Part shown: positions 6,735 through 12,175 of the stretch, piece after piece
Layout of the letters: each line of letters opens with the position of its first letter
How positions within the stretch are numbered: the stretch's first letter is position 1
Source of the DNA: a virus
Virus record (IMG/VR): IMGVR_UViG_3300042308_000860
Span: 1-21,597 of that record
Reading direction: 5' to 3' (one strand)
Length of the DNA stretch: 21,597 nt
Notes under the pieces: model-generated
Told to the model about the DNA's origin: nothing
The model's input: only the letters and a program-made list of their open reading frames with translations
Databases searched by the model: none
Position numbers and translations under genes: made by a program

Positions 6735-7094
6735 ATGGTAGTATTAGTAACATTCGTATTGACTATTGTATTCAGTATTGGATATTTAGTTGGAGCAAAA
6801 CAAAGTACAAAACAATTAATAGATAAAATTAAAAAGGATGGTGGATACTTTGATATGGAAATTACAGGAGCAGTTTATCCTTATGAACATATGCCAAGTT
6901 GGACACCACCAACAAGTTCAGTAGATACAATGGGTACAATAGGTAGTAAACCAAAAACACAAACCGATTATCAAAGAGAGCATGCAAAGATATCACCCTG
7001 TGTTGGACATGAATTAGAATCCCAAAAAGAAATTGAAAAAAGGGATATCGATTTTATGTATAAGTGGATAAGAGAAAAGAGTGGAAAAAAATAA
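6735..7094 (+). CDS. Single-pass membrane protein (119 aa)
   Basis: The N-terminal residues 1-20 (MVVLVTFVLTIVFSIGYLVG) form a membrane anchor or uncleaved signal, followed by AKQSTKQLIDKIKKDGGYFDM and a proline-rich segment (HMPSWTPPTSS), then a charged helical C-terminus (ESQKEIEKRDIDFMYKWIREK). The positive-inside rule favours a cytoplasmic C-terminal domain. There is no lipobox. The stop overlaps the next ATG (TAATG). No family is recognised. Confidence 0.75.
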   Translation: MVVLVTFVLTIVFSIGYLVGAKQSTKQLIDKIKKDGGYFDMEITGAVYPYEHMPSWTPPTSSVDTMGTIGSKPKTQTDYQREHAKISPCVGHELESQKEIEKRDIDFMYKWIREKSGKK

Positions 7095-7534
7095 TGAGTT
7101 GGATTTGTAGATATTGTGGTAAAGATACCAAATGGATTGACATGGATTATTTAGTAGGTACTGACCATTTACAATGTGCATTAGAAAATAACAAAATGAA
7201 AACAAAATTAAAGATAACTAATCCCGAAAAGATTAATAGTAAAAATTTGTGTTTGGATGGTTCTACGATTGAAATATGTTATATGAAACATGAGGCACGT
7301 ACCAACGCATCGGACAATGAACCTTATACTTTATACAAATTCGCAGGAGTTAAAAATGGTTCGTCTAATCATCATACAATATTTGAAATACATACTGATA
7401 TTAAAAATGGTAAAGTTCAATTCAATATTTGGAATATTAATAAAAGTATGACTGTCGATAGTATACCTGTTGAGTTGGTAAAAGATAGGAATGAATTAAT
7501 AAATAGAATGATTGCAGAAGTCAAAAAATATTAA
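7094..7534 (+). CDS. Putative zinc-binding protein (146 aa)
   Basis: The start is set at ATG 7094, which overlaps the previous stop; an upstream in-frame ATG at 7064 would add ten residues inside the neighbour. Cys5-x2-Cys8 (CRYCGK) and His25-x2-Cys28 (HLQC) form a CCHC set typical of a small treble-clef or zinc-ribbon knuckle. The remaining 115 residues look beta-rich (SNHHTIFEIHTDIKNGKVQF) with a final helix. This could be an HNH-like remnant, but no catalytic HNH residues are seen, so only metal binding is proposed. Confidence 0.75.
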   Translation: MSWICRYCGKDTKWIDMDYLVGTDHLQCALENNKMKTKLKITNPEKINSKNLCLDGSTIEICYMKHEARTNASDNEPYTLYKFAGVKNGSSNHHTIFEIHTDIKNGKVQFNIWNINKSMTVDSIPVELVKDRNELINRMIAEVKKY

Positions 7535-7535
7535 T

Positions 7536-7916
7536 ATGAAAATAAAAGGTTGGGAAAAATTAAGTGGGATTACATATAAAGGTTATTGTATAGTTAACCC
7601 AATACACAATGCACATGAAACAAAGTATGAAGCAACAATATTAAATTTGAATTTACCACAAAAACCAAAATGGGAATTATCAGTATTGACACCACAACAT
7701 AAATTTATAGTAGGTGAAAATACCGCAGATGGTATATTTTTTATATCAATGTGGGATGATAATAAATTTAGTGCAACTCGTAAAATGAATAAACAAAAGA
7801 TGAAGTCTATTTCAAATTTTAGAGAAACATTTGAGGAAATGGTGGATGAAATATTGAAAATGCAATTAACATCGACACCAGTTAGTTATTCAATTGCAAC
7901 ACAATTATATAATTAA
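7536..7916 (+). CDS. Possible divergent member of the MLTIxN family (126 aa)
   Basis: The start is set at ATG 7536, 1 nt behind the previous stop. The N-terminus MKIKGWEKLSGITYKGYCIV follows the same plan as four other proteins in this window (8196, 8456, 10512, 11858): a short strand with I-K/N, then a K-L motif, then a run of beta-strands, then a C-terminal helix (NFRETFEEMVDEILKMQ) that follows a strand. Similarity is weaker than among the others. Function is unknown. Confidence 0.7.
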   Translation: MKIKGWEKLSGITYKGYCIVNPIHNAHETKYEATILNLNLPQKPKWELSVLTPQHKFIVGENTADGIFFISMWDDNKFSATRKMNKQKMKSISNFRETFEEMVDEILKMQLTSTPVSYSIATQLYN

Positions 7917-7931
7917 CATAAAATACATAAT

Positions 7932-8192
7932 ATGTCAAAGTTAAATGAAATAATAAATGGATGGGCAAATGTAGTTAAAGATAGAATAGGAACATTAGAC
8001 CCGAATATAAAACAAATGGCAGAGAATAGATTATTACTATGTAATGTATGTCATATGAGGATAAATAATACATGTAGTCCTAAAAATATAGGAATAAACG
8101 AAATAACAAAACAAGAAACAAAAGGATGTGGATGTAATATATCAGCAAAGACTTTAAGTCCTGAAAGTAAATGTCCACTAAGTAAATGGTAA
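7932..8192 (+). CDS. Cys-rich zinc-ribbon-like phage protein (86 aa)
   Basis: Six cysteines occur in a regular pattern: Cys37-x2-Cys40, Cys48, Cys66-x-Cys68 and Cys81, with the final segment CPLSKW. The order (ENRLLLCNVC...C...GCGCNISAKT...CPLSKW) is one I associate with a widespread family of small uncharacterised proteins in Bacteroidota phages that end in CPLxKW. The N-terminal helix (LNEIINGWANVVKDRI) may be a protein-contact surface. It most likely binds one or two zinc ions; the role is unknown. Confidence 0.8.
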   Translation: MSKLNEIINGWANVVKDRIGTLDPNIKQMAENRLLLCNVCHMRINNTCSPKNIGINEITKQETKGCGCNISAKTLSPESKCPLSKW

Positions 8193-8195
8193 ACA

Positions 8196-8462
8196 ATGTT
8201 AACAATAAATAATTTAGATAAAATAGTTAGGTACCCGATAGGATATTCCTTTCGTGTGAAATCAATGGTGTGTGGACATACAACTTATCATATTTCATTG
8301 ATAGATGGTAAAGGACAATATAGAGATTTAAAACTTAATCGTATAAAAAATAAACGAGGTAAATATACAATATCACATGGTAACTATTCTTTGTATTTGA
8401 AATTTTCAGACATACACAATTTAGATTTCTTTTGTAAACAAATAAAACGATTACTATGTTAA
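8196..8462 (+). CDS. MLTIxN-family protein A (88 aa)
   Basis: The protein begins MLTINNLDKIVRYPIGYSFR, continues with beta-strand-like stretches (TTYHISLIDGKGQYRDLKL) and ends SLYLKFSDIHNLDFFCKQIK. The opening and the closing LYL..SDI.NLD.F..QI pattern recur in the proteins at 8456 and 11858, and the first 12 nt of the gene (ATGTTAACAATA) are identical in all three. It is therefore one of a set of diverged paralogues. It is basic and likely a small beta fold plus one helix. Function is unknown. It overlaps the next gene by 7 nt. Confidence 0.75.
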   Translation: MLTINNLDKIVRYPIGYSFRVKSMVCGHTTYHISLIDGKGQYRDLKLNRIKNKRGKYTISHGNYSLYLKFSDIHNLDFFCKQIKRLLC

Positions 8463-8725
8463 CAATAAAAAACCCGCAAAAGTTAATCGGACAAGAATAT
8501 AACGAAGTGTTTAATATTATTGGAGTTAAAGAACATAAACAATTCTACGAATTTACATTAGGATATGATGCTACTATAAAACCGGCAGTAGAAACTATAT
8601 TACTACATAGAGAACAAACCGACAACGGAATGTATGTAATGGAATACAATAGTAAAACCCTTTGGTTAAATACGAATGAGTTTGATACAATAGATAAAAT
8701 TATCATTTGCATGCAGACTATCTAA
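8456..8725 (+). CDS. MLTIxN-family protein B (89 aa)
   Basis: It begins MLTIKNPQKLIGQEYNEVFN and ends TLWLNTNEFDTIDKIIICMQ, aligning with the paralogue immediately upstream over both ends; the gene also starts with the same 12 nt. A head-to-tail pair of related genes overlapping by 7 nt points to an old tandem duplication. It is the last gene of its unit: the stop is followed directly by the promoter at 8726. Function is unknown. Confidence 0.75.
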   Translation: MLTIKNPQKLIGQEYNEVFNIIGVKEHKQFYEFTLGYDATIKPAVETILLHREQTDNGMYVMEYNSKTLWLNTNEFDTIDKIIICMQTI

Positions 8726-8757
8726 TTTGGTAAAGTGAAAAATTTGTCGTATATTTA
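8726..8757 (+). promoter_or_regulatory. Promoter of the extended TTTGG family, directly before uvdE-like gene
   Basis: TTTG at 8726-8729 and TATATTTA at 8750-8757 are 20 nt apart; the whole element is nearly identical to the one at 16785-16816 (TTTGGTAA, then AAAAATTTGTCGTATATT). The predicted transcription start (about 8761-8763) falls on or next to the ATG at 8762, so the mRNA would be leaderless or nearly so. Confidence 0.8.
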
Positions 8758-8761
8758 CTAT

Positions 8762-9649
8762 ATGAATATAGGATATGCATGTATTAACCTTTCATTAGGT
8801 AAAAAGATTACAACGAATAGGACAATGGTCAAACGAACTTTCATAGCAAAGGGTATTGACTATGTATCGGATTTGGTATTGCAGAATGTTGCAGACCTCG
8901 AACGAATTATAGATTGGAATGAGGAAATGGGGATTAAAATGTATCGCATGAGTAGCGAGATGTTTCCGTGGGCAACTGAATATGAATTTGAACAATTAAA
9001 AGATTGGAAAGCAATACATACAATACTACAAAGATGTGGTGAGAAGGCAACAAAGTATAAACAAAGATTATCATTTCACCCAGGTCCGTTTAATGTATTA
9101 GTTTCACCAAAAGAAAGTGTAGTAGAAAATACAATAAAAGATTTAGAAGTGCATGGTAAAATAATGGACGCAATGAATTTATCCAAAACACCTTACAATA
9201 AAATTAATATACATTGCAACGGAGTATATGGTGACAAGATTGCAGCAATGGATAGATTTTGTACTAACTTTGACAAACTATCTAATTCAGTTAAGACAAG
9301 ACTAACAATAGAGAATGATGATAAGGCAAGTATGTATTCAGTTAAAGACTTAATGTATATTCATAATAAGATTAACATACCGATTACATTTGATTATCAC
9401 CACCACACATTTAACACAGGAGATTTAAGTGAACGAGATGCATTAAAGTTAGCAGTATCAACCTGGCCGAAAGGTATAACACCAGCAGTTCATTATTCCG
9501 AAAGTAAAGCATTACATGAAAACAATACAAAAGTCAAAGCACAAGCACATTCCGATTATATTGATACCATCCCCGATACATACGAATTGGACGTGGACAT
9601 TATGGTTGAAGCAAAACAAAAAGATTTAGCAATATTAAAATTTATATAA
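8762..9649 (+). CDS. uvdE: UV damage endonuclease, UvdE family (295 aa)
   Basis: UvdE enzymes are metal-dependent TIM-barrel nucleases that nick DNA 5' of UV photoproducts. Family landmarks are present in order: MNIGYACINLSL at the N-terminus, YRMSSEMFPW (61-70), LSFHPGPFNVL (His106), INIHCNGVYGDK (His151), LTIENDD (Glu184), FDYHHHTFN (Asp211, His213-215), PAVHYSES (His244), HSDYI (His263) and Glu284 near the end. The start is set at ATG 8762 because MxIGYACINLSL is the family N-terminus; the GTG at 8735 lies inside the promoter. The length is normal for bacterial members. One oddity is Ala242 two residues before His244, where the Thermus enzyme has a modified Lys. The gene is probably for repair of phage or host DNA after UV damage. 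Confidence 0.93.
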   Translation: MNIGYACINLSLGKKITTNRTMVKRTFIAKGIDYVSDLVLQNVADLERIIDWNEEMGIKMYRMSSEMFPWATEYEFEQLKDWKAIHTILQRCGEKATKYKQRLSFHPGPFNVLVSPKESVVENTIKDLEVHGKIMDAMNLSKTPYNKINIHCNGVYGDKIAAMDRFCTNFDKLSNSVKTRLTIENDDKASMYSVKDLMYIHNKINIPITFDYHHHTFNTGDLSERDALKLAVSTWPKGITPAVHYSESKALHENNTKVKAQAHSDYIDTIPDTYELDVDIMVEAKQKDLAILKFI

Positions 9650-9650
9650 A

Positions 9651-10220
9651 ATGAAAAACTTAATTATAATAGGACACCCTGATAAAAAGAGTTTCTGCTA
9701 CAATGGTATAATGAAAACCATTGAAGGATTTTTAAAACAAAATAAAGAGGAAACGTGTGTTATTGATTTATACAAAGAAAATATAACATTTGAATTTTCA
9801 AAAGATACAATCAAAAGATACAAAGAGTTAATAACTTGGGCAGATAGGATTTATATTATTTCTCCCGTATGGTGGTTTAGATGCACACCTGCAATGGAGG
9901 CATTCTTTGACCAAATATTTACACCAGGGTTTGCATATAAGTTTACACCCGTTACAAAAGTGTATGGTTATCCAACACCTCTATTGAGTGATAAAAAAGT
10001 TAGAACTTATTTGACACATGGAGCACCTGCATTGCCTGTATTAACAATGTATTTTAATTCAGTTAAATTGAGATTGGTTATGGGTGTGTATTCATTTGTA
10101 TTCGGTTGGTTTAAAACAAAGACTCGTCAATTTTGGAGTGTACCCTTTGTTTCTCAAAATGAAAGAATGGTATATTTGGAAAAGGTTAAACAGGATATTA
10201 GAAAAGATTTAAAAGGATAG
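9651..10220 (+). CDS. Flavodoxin-fold NAD(P)H:quinone-reductase-like protein (189 aa)
   Basis: The N-terminus MKNLIIIGHPDKKSFCYNGI matches the first strand and phosphate-binding loop of the NQO/KefF/MdaB flavodoxin-like family (I..GHP...SF...). SPVWWFRCTPAMEAFFDQIF (71-90) and TPGFAYKF (91-98) are the characteristic FMN/FAD-contact and dimer motif of that family, and THGAP (122-126) is the next flavin-contact loop. The length is typical. Such enzymes transfer two electrons from NAD(P)H to quinones or similar acceptors. The gene begins 1 nt after uvdE, so both are on one transcript. It is unusual in a phage and looks like an acquired metabolic gene. Confidence 0.88.
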   Translation: MKNLIIIGHPDKKSFCYNGIMKTIEGFLKQNKEETCVIDLYKENITFEFSKDTIKRYKELITWADRIYIISPVWWFRCTPAMEAFFDQIFTPGFAYKFTPVTKVYGYPTPLLSDKKVRTYLTHGAPALPVLTMYFNSVKLRLVMGVYSFVFGWFKTKTRQFWSVPFVSQNERMVYLEKVKQDIRKDLKG

Positions 10221-10221
10221 T

Positions 10222-10368
10222 ATGAAACGATTATTTGCAAAGTTAATAGAATATAGATTCACCGATACAGTAAATGGTAAGGCCGTTTTTCTATATGAAT
10301 GTAAAGATGGGACTCGTTTTCTTGCACATTCTAAATGGGAATCTTTATTTTTTTATGTTAAATTTTAA
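10222..10368 (+). CDS. Small hypothetical protein (48 aa)
   Basis: The frame runs ATG 10222 to TAA 10366-10368, 1 nt behind the reductase stop. The peptide (MKRLFAKLIEYRFTDTVNGK...) has a basic N-terminal helix followed by strand-like stretches (AVFLYECKDGTRFLAHSKWE) and a hydrophobic end (SLFFYVKF). It could be a small beta barrel or a peripheral membrane peptide. No family is recognised. Confidence 0.6.
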   Translation: MKRLFAKLIEYRFTDTVNGKAVFLYECKDGTRFLAHSKWESLFFYVKF

Positions 10369-10381
10369 AGATTGAAGTAAT

Positions 10382-10537
10382 ATGAAAATAATATACATGC
10401 AAAGAACAATTGAAATGATTGTTAAAAATGAAATTGAATTGTCAGCAGATAGTTTATTACACACAAAACCGACAAGAGTTGAAACACACAAAGAACAAAA
10501 CTATTTAGTATATGAGTTTGACAATAAAGAATTATAA
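10382..10537 (+). CDS. Small hypothetical protein (51 aa)
   Basis: ATG 10382 to TAA 10535-10537. The N-terminal half is a helix (MKIIYMQRTIEMIVKNEIEL), and the end is a strand with acidic tail (QNYLVYEFDNKEL). It overlaps the next start by 26 nt. No family is recognised; confidence rests on spacing and on filling the gap between two longer genes. Confidence 0.55.
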   Translation: MKIIYMQRTIEMIVKNEIELSADSLLHTKPTRVETHKEQNYLVYEFDNKEL

Positions 10538-10859
10538 ACAATTAGAAGGTTGGGCACATCACTACAAAGACTTTAGAATAGGTGAAGTGATTGAAACCGA
10601 AACGGAATATAGTTTTAGAGTTGCATATAATTCTATGCCATACACAATAAAAATATTTAGAACAAAACTTATTACAAACGAATATGAAATGGTATTGAGG
10701 GATGGTGCAGATATAACACAATACGGCAGAGAATGGATTGTAGGTAGAAAATTAAAATCATTAGAACTAACTGCATTAATATTTGAATCATTGATAGTAA
10801 AATGTAAACCAAAAGCAAAACAAACACAGGGTAATATAAATTTCAATAACCCGTTTTAA
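10512..10859 (+). CDS. MLTIxN-family protein C (115 aa)
   Basis: It starts MSLTIKNYKQLEGWAHHYKD, with the LTIKN-x2-(K/Q)-L core of the paralogues at 8196, 8456 and 11858, and has similar alternating beta stretches (EYSFRVAYNSMPYTIKIFRT). The C-terminal half includes LKSLELTALIFESLIVKCKP, a helix in the position occupied by the conserved helix in the others, plus an extra polar tail ending NINFNNPF. Function is unknown. Confidence 0.7.
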   Translation: MSLTIKNYKQLEGWAHHYKDFRIGEVIETETEYSFRVAYNSMPYTIKIFRTKLITNEYEMVLRDGADITQYGREWIVGRKLKSLELTALIFESLIVKCKPKAKQTQGNINFNNPF

Positions 10860-10869
10860 AACAAATAAT

Positions 10870-11121
10870 ATGAAAATAGAATTAGGATTTAGTTTTTTAA
10901 GTAAAAGAGAAACACTATTAGGATTGCAAATAACTACACATAACGGAGTGACTGCACAAAATGACACATTGTATAGTGAACGAGCGGTAGAGTTTAGTAT
11001 TGGTATTGTATTTGCAATATTAACAATAGGATTCGTTTCAATGGGTGAAAAGTTAGATATACCCGAAATGGATAATGTAAAGAGAGCGATGAAAGCTTTT
11101 GAAAACGAAATGGATAAATAA
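10870..11121 (+). CDS. Small protein with one membrane segment (83 aa)
   Basis: Residues 41-58 (EFSIGIVFAILTIGFVSM) form a probable membrane helix. The N-terminal 40 residues are beta-like (MKIELGFSFLSKRETLLGLQ) and the C-terminal tail is charged (DNVKRAMKAFENEMDK). No signal peptidase site is evident. No family is recognised. Confidence 0.7.
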   Translation: MKIELGFSFLSKRETLLGLQITTHNGVTAQNDTLYSERAVEFSIGIVFAILTIGFVSMGEKLDIPEMDNVKRAMKAFENEMDK

Positions 11122-11129
11122 AAAAGACA

Positions 11130-11657
11130 ATGGTAAATAGAATTGATGCATTAGCTCACGACGATACAAACGATAGGATAATTGCAAAATCATTTTTAGA
11201 AAATCAAGGTTGGTGGGATATCAAATTAGGTGGAAAATATGATTTGGATTTAGAAGTACCTAAATTTAAAAGAGGATGTGATATTGAAATGATTAACTAC
11301 GGAATGGATAGGTTTGAAAAACATAATCATTTTAGAATACCTGTTAGGAAATATAAATATTGGAGTGAATTGCCAACATACAAAGACAAAAACGAAAATG
11401 AAAAATACAATAAGTATCACGATTGGTATATAGATTATATTCAGTTTCTTAATAATGATTTGACTGAATTGCTTTGGTATAATTGGAAAACAATAAAACA
11501 CTACAAAGATAATTTATATATTGATAATACATTAACAAAACAATGGAGTGAACGAGAAAGTAGTTTTATAACAATACCCTACAATTATATAAAAGAATTT
11601 AGTGGAATTAAACATTATAAATTAATAAACGGATTATGGACAAGACAAATCAATTAA
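11130..11657 (+). CDS. Hypothetical protein, weak PD-(D/E)XK-like pattern (175 aa)
   Basis: The order DLDLEVPKFKRGCDIEM (Asp38, Asp40, Glu42, Asp51, Glu53), then NHFRIPVRKYKYW (67-78), recalls phage proteins of the PD-(D/E)XK nuclease fold in which an acidic pair is followed by an iPxRK-x2-YW segment. The canonical catalytic Lys after the second acidic residue is not seen, so activity is doubtful. The C-terminal half is Trp/Tyr/Asn-rich. There are no cysteines besides Cys50. The assignment is tentative; it may be an unrelated fold. Confidence 0.7.
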   Translation: MVNRIDALAHDDTNDRIIAKSFLENQGWWDIKLGGKYDLDLEVPKFKRGCDIEMINYGMDRFEKHNHFRIPVRKYKYWSELPTYKDKNENEKYNKYHDWYIDYIQFLNNDLTELLWYNWKTIKHYKDNLYIDNTLTKQWSERESSFITIPYNYIKEFSGIKHYKLINGLWTRQIN

Positions 11658-11854
11658 TAGGAGACTTTAAACAATTTATAACAATTGAAAGAAGGGAATT
11701 GAATCAATTACAAGGATTAGCAGATGAATTGATGGATAAGGGTAGTAAGATAGAAGATGCAGGAATGTATCAAAAGGGAATAGGTATAAACTATGCAATT
11801 GAATGGATAAAAGAAAATAATATCTACAATAAAGAATTTGAAATAAAAGGATAG
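11636..11854 (+). CDS. Small helical hypothetical protein (72 aa)
   Basis: ATG 11636 overlaps the previous gene by 22 nt. The protein is largely helical (LIGDFKQFITIERRELNQLQ; then KGIGINYAIEWIKENNIYN) with no cysteine or membrane segment. The pattern of two helices separated by a short turn resembles small four-helix dimers, but no family is recognised. Confidence 0.65.
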   Translation: MDKTNQLIGDFKQFITIERRELNQLQGLADELMDKGSKIEDAGMYQKGIGINYAIEWIKENNIYNKEFEIKG

Positions 11855-11857
11855 TAT

Positions 11858-12175
11858 ATGTTAACAATACAAAACTTAAATAAATTAAACAATAAAGGAT
11901 TGGGTAAGAAAAACTTTTATGTTGAAAGGATAACTGAACAATTTAGTATGGATAATAAAAACTTACTTGCAGTTGAACATCAATACAAATTTGAAATAAC
12001 CAATAGAAAATATGGTATAACAATTATATTGAATAGAGAACCGGCTCAATATAATGCATTAGGAACATATTTTACATTACATAGTAGTACGGGACATAAA
12101 TTGTATATATCAAAAGACGAAATTAGTAACATGGATATATTCATTGATAAATTAAGATTAGTTGCATTAGGTTAA
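11858..12175 (+). CDS. MLTIxN-family protein D (105 aa)
   Basis: It begins MLTIQNLNKLNNKGLGKKNF and ends KLYISKDEISNMDIFIDKLR, matching proteins A and B (LYL..SDI.NLD.F..QI and LWL.TNEFDTIDKI). The gene shares their first 12 nt. Between these ends it has an extra 20 or so residues in the beta region (YKFEITNRKYGITIILNREP). It is the last gene before the G-tract intergenic region. Function is unknown. Confidence 0.75.
   Translation: MLTIQNLNKLNNKGLGKKNFYVERITEQFSMDNKNLLAVEHQYKFEITNRKYGITIILNREPAQYNALGTYFTLHSSTGHKLYISKDEISNMDIFIDKLRLVALG

Follow-up and report, generated by a model that had tools for sequence, protein, structure and literature searches.

A diverged family of small proteins in arrays of related large tailed phages, and whole-gene gain and loss at its conserved start sequence

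The host-takeover or early gene modules of large phages such as T4 and SPO1 comprise many unrelated small proteins, encoded in single-strand runs of small, fast-evolving and variable open reading frames (ORFs) with no recognisable domains. Integron gene cassettes are promoterless single ORFs that are exchanged whole at a short conserved sequence. Here we describe arrays of small phage genes that recall both systems. The analysis set out from the virus record IMGVR_UViG_3300042308_000860, whose entire 21,597 bases are referred to as the window. In it an initial annotation, made from the sequence alone, had noticed five small ORFs, named here by their first positions (7536, 8196, 8456, 10512 and 11858), and had read them as one diverged paralogous family, suggestive of host-interaction proteins with changing targets; that observation was confirmed in part and its interpretation supported in part, and the family proved to be much larger than had been supposed. 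In this report, we show that the family is found, within all our searches, only in related large tailed phages from metagenomes, and that its genes are gained and lost whole at, and often inside, a conserved start sequence of about 18 nucleotides (nt).

The protein family and its predicted fold

All five ORFs lie where the annotation had placed them. The proteins of 8196, 8456 and 11858 do share the start MLTI-x-N-x2-K-(I/L), and that of 10512 begins with MSLTIKN, in line with the LTIKN ascribed to it. The end motif attributed to the first three, LYL-x3-(D/E)I-x-N-(L/M)D-x-F, held less well, being literal in 8196 only (LYLKFSDIHNLDFF); 11858 has LYI instead (LYISKDEISNMDIF), and 8456 carries a loose version only (LWLNTNEFDTIDKI). 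Full-length identity to 11858 is 30% for 8196, 26% for 8456, 17% for 10512 and 12% for 7536.

Searching IMG/VR with one member at a time yielded 12, 9, 15 and 14 loci, several of them with many further ORFs having the same start, and the start pattern matched 19 of 21 records (reversed control, 0). The 98 ORFs from 15 records that were chosen by their first six residues alone all lie on one strand per record. At E<1e-3 a profile made from them detected 166 ORFs, whereas shuffled proteins reached at best E 0.0086 in the opening round and 0.51 in the final one; two of the 98 seed ORFs were missed by the profile and dropped. All of 14 records scanned contained members, with as many as 32 in one of 101 kilobases (kb) and 17 in another of 274 kb. 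In total, 29 related uncultured phage records hold 306 copies, from 2 to 32 per record and on a single strand within each, the counts of 166 and 306 both taking in ORFs that the profile itself added. These records (G001-G029) are not independent, as G007/G008, G013/G014 and G017/G018 are partly near copies and G001 includes the family genes of the window; several records were read in part only. The proteins are single-domain, of about 90-120 residues.

The annotation had known of no described family with this signature, and likewise we found no described relative in Pfam, PHROGs, NCBIfam, PADLOC or PDB sequences. No family in the first four matched more than one of 84 scanned members at E 0.01. 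The five window proteins reached no Pfam family above its cut-off and no PHROGs family at E 0.01, the best Pfam match of 7536 being TAGT at 21 bits, below the cut-off of 27.5. The window had no megablast match among 50,697 phage records, and single-query searches of INPHARED with 11858, 7536 and 8456 gave no match. Among bacterial and archaeal genomes, the exact start pattern had 0 matches, and a narrow scan with a profile of 11858 orthologs gave 45 pattern matches, none of which was confirmed. Literature searches, judged by title, returned no publication on such a family, an absence limited to these searches. Within the searches made, the protein family is previously undescribed.

The relationship among the members extends beyond their shared start, and profiles from related phages link four of the five window proteins (8196, 8456, 10512 and 11858) as the single diverged paralogous family that had been proposed. 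In a leave-out test, every group was stripped of its first 11 residues and scored with a profile made from the rest; in 53 of 57 cases the group scored above every one of the 1523 background ORFs, and a group discussed below (7094-7534) is one of the four failures. The bodies of the 8196, 8456, 10512 and 11858 groups all outscored the whole background, 8456 with 32.7 bits versus a best background of 15.8, 10512 with 17.7 versus 13.3 and 11858 with 30.0 versus 14.4. In a stricter version, restricted to ORFs selected on their first six residues alone and to groups whose bodies show no detectable mutual similarity, 17 of 22 groups ranked first among 816 background ORFs. For 7536, profile-profile comparison with hhalign matched the family over nearly the whole domain (probability 84.6, E 6.8e-6); smaller profiles gave weaker matches (probability 11.5 with three sequences and 58.5 with ten).

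Structure prediction gave a common topology. The model of 11858, from an alignment of 84 members (predicted local distance difference test score, pLDDT, 86.7; predicted template modelling score, pTM, 0.76), has a helix at residues 7-10, strands at 21-32, 37-48, 53-59, 69-76 and 81-85 with a short one at 64-66, and helices at 86-90 and 92-104. The model of 7536, built on 14 sequences of its own type that do not occur in the 11858 alignment (pLDDT 82.9, pTM 0.74), has a helix at 6-9, strands at 17-24, 30-37, 45-51, 67-73 and 79-85, and helices at 86-89 and 92-113. Compared without superposition, both models show the element order H-E-E-E-E-E-H-H (H, helix; E, strand), to which 11858 adds one 3-residue strand. 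Rather than the unrelated folds that would speak against kinship, two models from non-overlapping alignments thus share one order of elements, and the domain is predicted to comprise a short helix, a five-strand antiparallel meander, a short helix and a long C-terminal helix. Because the profile comparison and the matching model topology agree, 7536, which had been put forward as a possible distant fifth, is best read as a distant member of the family.

Foldseek searches against PDB with both models, and against BFVD with the 11858 model, found nothing at E<=0.001, although a family missing from these match lists may still be related. By VIA-align, the best neighbours of 11858 were a Mediator chain (7emf_Q, Z 5.9) and actin capping protein (3aae_H, Z 5.7, root-mean-square deviation (rmsd) 3.5 over 87 aligned residues), and the 7536 model aligned with 3aae_H (Z 8.4, rmsd 3.6, 112 aligned), PI31 (4ouh_D, Z 7.6, rmsd 3.3, 97 aligned) and two type III secretion chaperones (3kxy_H, Z 7.1, rmsd 2.9, 91 aligned; another at Z 6.6). 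Like the family, the C-terminal domain of actin capping protein, the FP domain of PI31 and class I type III secretion chaperones combine a meander with a C-terminal helix, but their sequence identity to the family models is 5-12%, with no Foldseek match at E<=0.001. The likeness may reflect a common arrangement only, neither kinship nor function. Several of these neighbours are dimeric protein-binding domains, which hints at a binding role for the family proteins as well.

Arrays, the conserved start sequence and gene gain and loss

The family genes stand in arrays, often head to tail, with a family gene directly upstream in 108 of 174 cases. The spacing to the upstream gene is 1 nt in 62 of 174, and a 7-nt overlap occurs in 20 of 174, in 19 of them behind a family gene; in the window, the TAA stop of 8196 lies inside the start sequence of 8456 in such an overlap. 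Array maps show different assortments in different records. No pair within a record, of 2256 compared by blastp, exceeds 37.7% identity, so the copies are old, strongly diverged paralogs, and recent tandem duplication can be rejected. Clustering at 40% identity gave 92 groups, of which 55 occur in more than one record and 37 were seen once; two members of one group share a record in 2 records only. Of the repeated duplication with strong divergence that had been suggested, the divergence is borne out, but what present genomes display is old paralogs together with gain and loss of whole genes.

The first 12 nt of the gene, ATGTTAACAATA, are identical in 8196, 8456 and 11858, as first noticed; the 12-mer occurs 3 times in the window, and in 100 shuffles it occurred 0.02 times on average and never 3 times. 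Across the family, the first ~18 nt are conserved beyond what the amino acids require. In 124 unique members, Leu2 is CTA in 59%, compared with 12% in the bodies and 8% in other genes, and Thr3 is ACA in 92% versus 51% in the bodies; similarly, Ile4 is ATA in 83% versus 60% and Asn6 is AAC in 48% versus 25%. Counted by group, 41 of 69 favour CTA for Leu2, a codon that makes up 11.9% of body Leu codons (p = 6e-21), and non-family ORFs beginning Met-Leu have CTA in 4 of 34. Unrelated members of one record agree at codon 2 more often than shuffled ones (0.62 versus a mean of 0.445 and a maximum of 0.545 in 300 shuffles), as is expected under exchange within a genome or under a clade-specific recognition factor.

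Some simpler accounts of the start were discarded. A special upstream element was rejected, the profile upstream of the ATG being near that of other genes and conservation beginning at the ATG. The out-of-frame stop in ATGYTAA is present in 162 of 179 members versus 43 of 802 other genes, but it serves the preceding gene as a stop in only 20 of 174, and it mostly follows from Leu2 and a next codon beginning with A, so it was rejected as an independent constraint. A role of the N-terminal motif in targeting was likewise rejected. Some members have the motif inside the chain, nine residues in within MQPTLKQNRITIKN... and tens of residues in within the 7094 fusion, so a structural role is likelier.

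Comparison of records showed where genes come and go. The arrays of G018 and G017 match except for one extra gene in G018, which sits exactly stop-to-start between two family genes. The matches on either side share 25 nt at the start sequence; identity is 100% over 1721 nt before it and 96.8% over the 771 nt after it. In G015, as in G017, the two flanking genes adjoin, and because the same neighbours adjoin there too, insertion in G018 is the simpler reading. A junction within the window (Table 1) shows a 22-nt alignment overlap spanning the start sequence. Overall, junctions of insertions or deletions fall at 35 of 208 family starts versus 72 of 1318 other gene starts (Fisher p = 1e-7), and the median alignment overlap is 22 nt at family starts, 15 nt at other gene starts and 8 nt elsewhere. 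Mosaicism also extends beyond the arrays: among the retrieved pieces of G001-G029 there are 220 unique insertion/deletion sites, 113 of them away from gene starts.

A rival account of the start sequence, which we hold to be a real if tentative possibility, is that this DNA is a regulatory site common to the copies: a regulator, whether RNA or protein, would recognise AUGYUAACAAUA at the start codon and so control all of them together, in the manner of T4 RegA. The constrained synonymous positions, a preferred codon that varies by record, and conservation that begins at the ATG while the upstream region looks like that of other genes are all as such a regulator predicts. The greater frequency of insertions and deletions at family starts than at other starts, and their longer overlaps, point instead to recombination. 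The two ideas are compatible, and the start may be a site of recombination, of recognition or of both. It is a more doubtful proposition that the arrays form a gene-repertoire system in which the ~18-nt sequence would act at once as start context, often as the stop of the preceding gene and as the point at which whole genes are joined between phages, so that every phage would hold its own mix of one-fold binders, no two of them alike.

Window genes and the phages that carry the family

The features of the window are collected in Table 1.

Table 1. Family genes, start sequences and gain/loss junction in the window (aa, amino acids)
Feature	Position	Strand	Description	Evidence or occurrence
Probable member	7094..7534	+	Zinc-finger-like motif and KLKITNPEKIN... 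domain	Full profile; weak on body alone
Distant member	7536..7916	+	126 aa, MKIKGWEKLSG...	Profile-profile match and predicted fold
Family member	8196..8462	+	88 aa, MLTINNLDKI...	Profile match; orthologs in 10 of 29 records
Start sequence	8196..8207	+	ATGTTAACAATA	12-mer match
Gain/loss junction	8452..8473	+		In G015, two further family genes between the 8196 and 8456 orthologs
Family member	8456..8725	+	89 aa, most widespread subfamily	Profile match; 19 of 29 records
Start sequence	8456..8467	+	ATGTTAACAATA, holds stop codon of preceding family gene	12-mer match
Family member	10512..10859	+	115 aa, MSLTIKN start, longer C-terminal tail	Profile match; 15 of 29 records
Family member	11858..12175	+	105 aa, modelled	Profile match; 17 of 29 records
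Start sequence	11858..11869	+	ATGTTAACAATA	12-mer match

The ORF-finding program starts 7536 at a TTG at 7512. A sixth candidate, absent from the initial annotation, is the ORF at 7094-7534, in which the motif C-x2-C-x16-H-x2-C stands N-terminal to a family-like C-terminal part. It is matched by the full profile; its body without the first 11 residues scored 7.7 bits versus a background of 15.2, failing the leave-out test, and its hhalign probability is 14.5. A similar finger is fused to a 7536-type domain in G005, G016, G019 and the G017/G018 pair, so that the motif is joined to one domain type in the window lineage and to the 7536 type elsewhere, a swap of partner domains.

Record G001 (60,868 bases) holds the five family genes that the profile found in the window and four others. 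Between family genes of the window, positions 8735-9646 encode the UV-endonuclease UvdE (Pfam E 7e-65), whose nearest relative in a phage record is in the 642-kb uncultured phage LR756502 (45%), and beside it, at 9651-10220, is an ORF recognised by eye as a putative flavodoxin-like NAD(P)H-quinone reductase.

Among the other records, G007 encodes a baseplate wedge protein of T4 type and an SbcD-SbcC fusion. The latter joins SbcD- and SbcC-like parts in one ORF of 1047 aa (L085:12797-15937), and its full-length relatives in phage records are in Microcystis phage Mel-JY01 (42%) and the uncultured LR756508 (38%). The wedge protein is closest to those of Mel-JY01 (44%), LR756508 (40%) and Flavobacterium phage immuto (40%). 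These three phages share this related protein (40-44%) and yet lack a convincing family member: the family profile and the 7536-type profile found none in them or in LR756502, and in immuto, Mel-JY01 and LR756508 the best family-profile E value was 0.006, with stops inside the match. G018 (79.8 kb) combines a clamp loader, family arrays and a full TonB-dependent receptor (CarbopepD_reg_2, plug and beta-barrel; L070:13799-16327). A phage-borne TonB receptor is unusual, and the G018 record could be chimeric. The host is likely a member of the Bacteroidota.

A recombining repertoire and its alternatives

The family, its arrays and its fold are well supported, and from them we infer what the proteins do. 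Selection has kept them: the median ratio of nonsynonymous to synonymous substitution rates (dN/dS) is 0.428 for 760 family pairs versus 0.231 for 1917 pairs of other genes and 0.227 for short non-family genes, though the pairs lack independence and some of them may be paralogs. These are the pairs that passed the filters, out of 1026 family pairs and 3000 other pairs sampled from 3568. The family proteins thus change about twice as fast as other genes. Their net charge has a median of +2 (258 members), with pI >9 in 90, <7 in 90 and <5 in 11. Acidic DNA-mimic anti-restriction proteins were rejected on this median and on the 11 of 258 with pI <5.

With a probability of roughly one in two, we read the family as a shuffled repertoire of binding proteins of one fold, probably aimed at host or rival targets. 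Each array would be translated as coupled reading frames of a putative polycistronic message, and the proteins would be small modules, perhaps dimeric, that bind other proteins, each with a separate target; host enzymes, defence systems and competing phages are the likeliest targets. Ready-made genes would pass from phage to phage by recombination at the start sequences, and near-identical neighbours would be lost through mutual recombination, leaving a diverse repertoire on one scaffold. Such a recombining repertoire agrees with the turnover of genes, with the pace at which they evolve, with the lack of near-identical copies and with the domain's shape. Similarly, the host interaction with changing targets that had been proposed at the outset fits the faster evolution and the turnover, without being shown by them.

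Several points weigh against this reading. An overlap of the start at junctions is equally expected if the sequence is kept for some other reason, by whatever route genes are gained or lost, and other gene starts serve as junctions too. In the stricter leave-out test, five of 22 groups did not rank first, two of them being ORFs that the profile itself rejects. No curated family or solved structure supplies a function for any member, and dimerisation is suggested solely by the nature of the proteins that the models resemble. In addition, dN/dS exceeds 1 in only 7 of 760 family pairs, and because it is mostly below 1 an arms race is not demonstrated.

Alternatively, the proteins could act on the phage itself, as diverged regulators or subunits, for example in nucleic-acid binding or a heteromeric assembly. 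We think this unlikely on balance. The presence of the 8456 and 11858 subfamilies in 19 and 17 of 29 records is what a core function predicts, members are slightly basic on average (median +2, 90 of 258 with pI >9) and one branch has a zinc-finger-like motif; most subfamilies, however, are patchy (37 of 92 seen once), records carry anywhere from 2 to 32 copies, charge varies (pI <7 in 90 of 258) and evolution is faster than in other genes. Still less probable are selfish cassettes that spread by recombination with no benefit to the carrier, as the exact start-to-start insertion and patchy distribution might be taken to indicate, given purifying selection (median dN/dS 0.43), mostly intact ORFs with a median length of 106 residues, and no nuclease or integrase seen within the unit. 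A similarity owed to chance, or to unrelated proteins having converged at their short ends, is extremely improbable and was rejected on the 12-mer shuffle control and both leave-out tests: full-length identity inside the window is just 12-30%, but bodies without their first 11 residues still recognise each other and separate alignments gave the same predicted topology.

Many phage accessory genes have no recognisable relatives, and here 92 groups from 29 records reduce to one domain, which leaves a single structural question and a single search profile. If genes are joined at the start sequence, this would explain how a large set of small effectors is kept and renewed; should the targets be host or defence proteins, the arrays would be ready-made libraries of inhibitors on a single scaffold. 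Compared with integron cassettes, the family genes differ in that the conserved sequence is the gene start itself and that no integrase was seen in the unit, attC sites not having been searched for. In contrast to the takeover modules of T4 and SPO1, the arrays, known here from sequence, repeat one fold and one start sequence up to 32 times.

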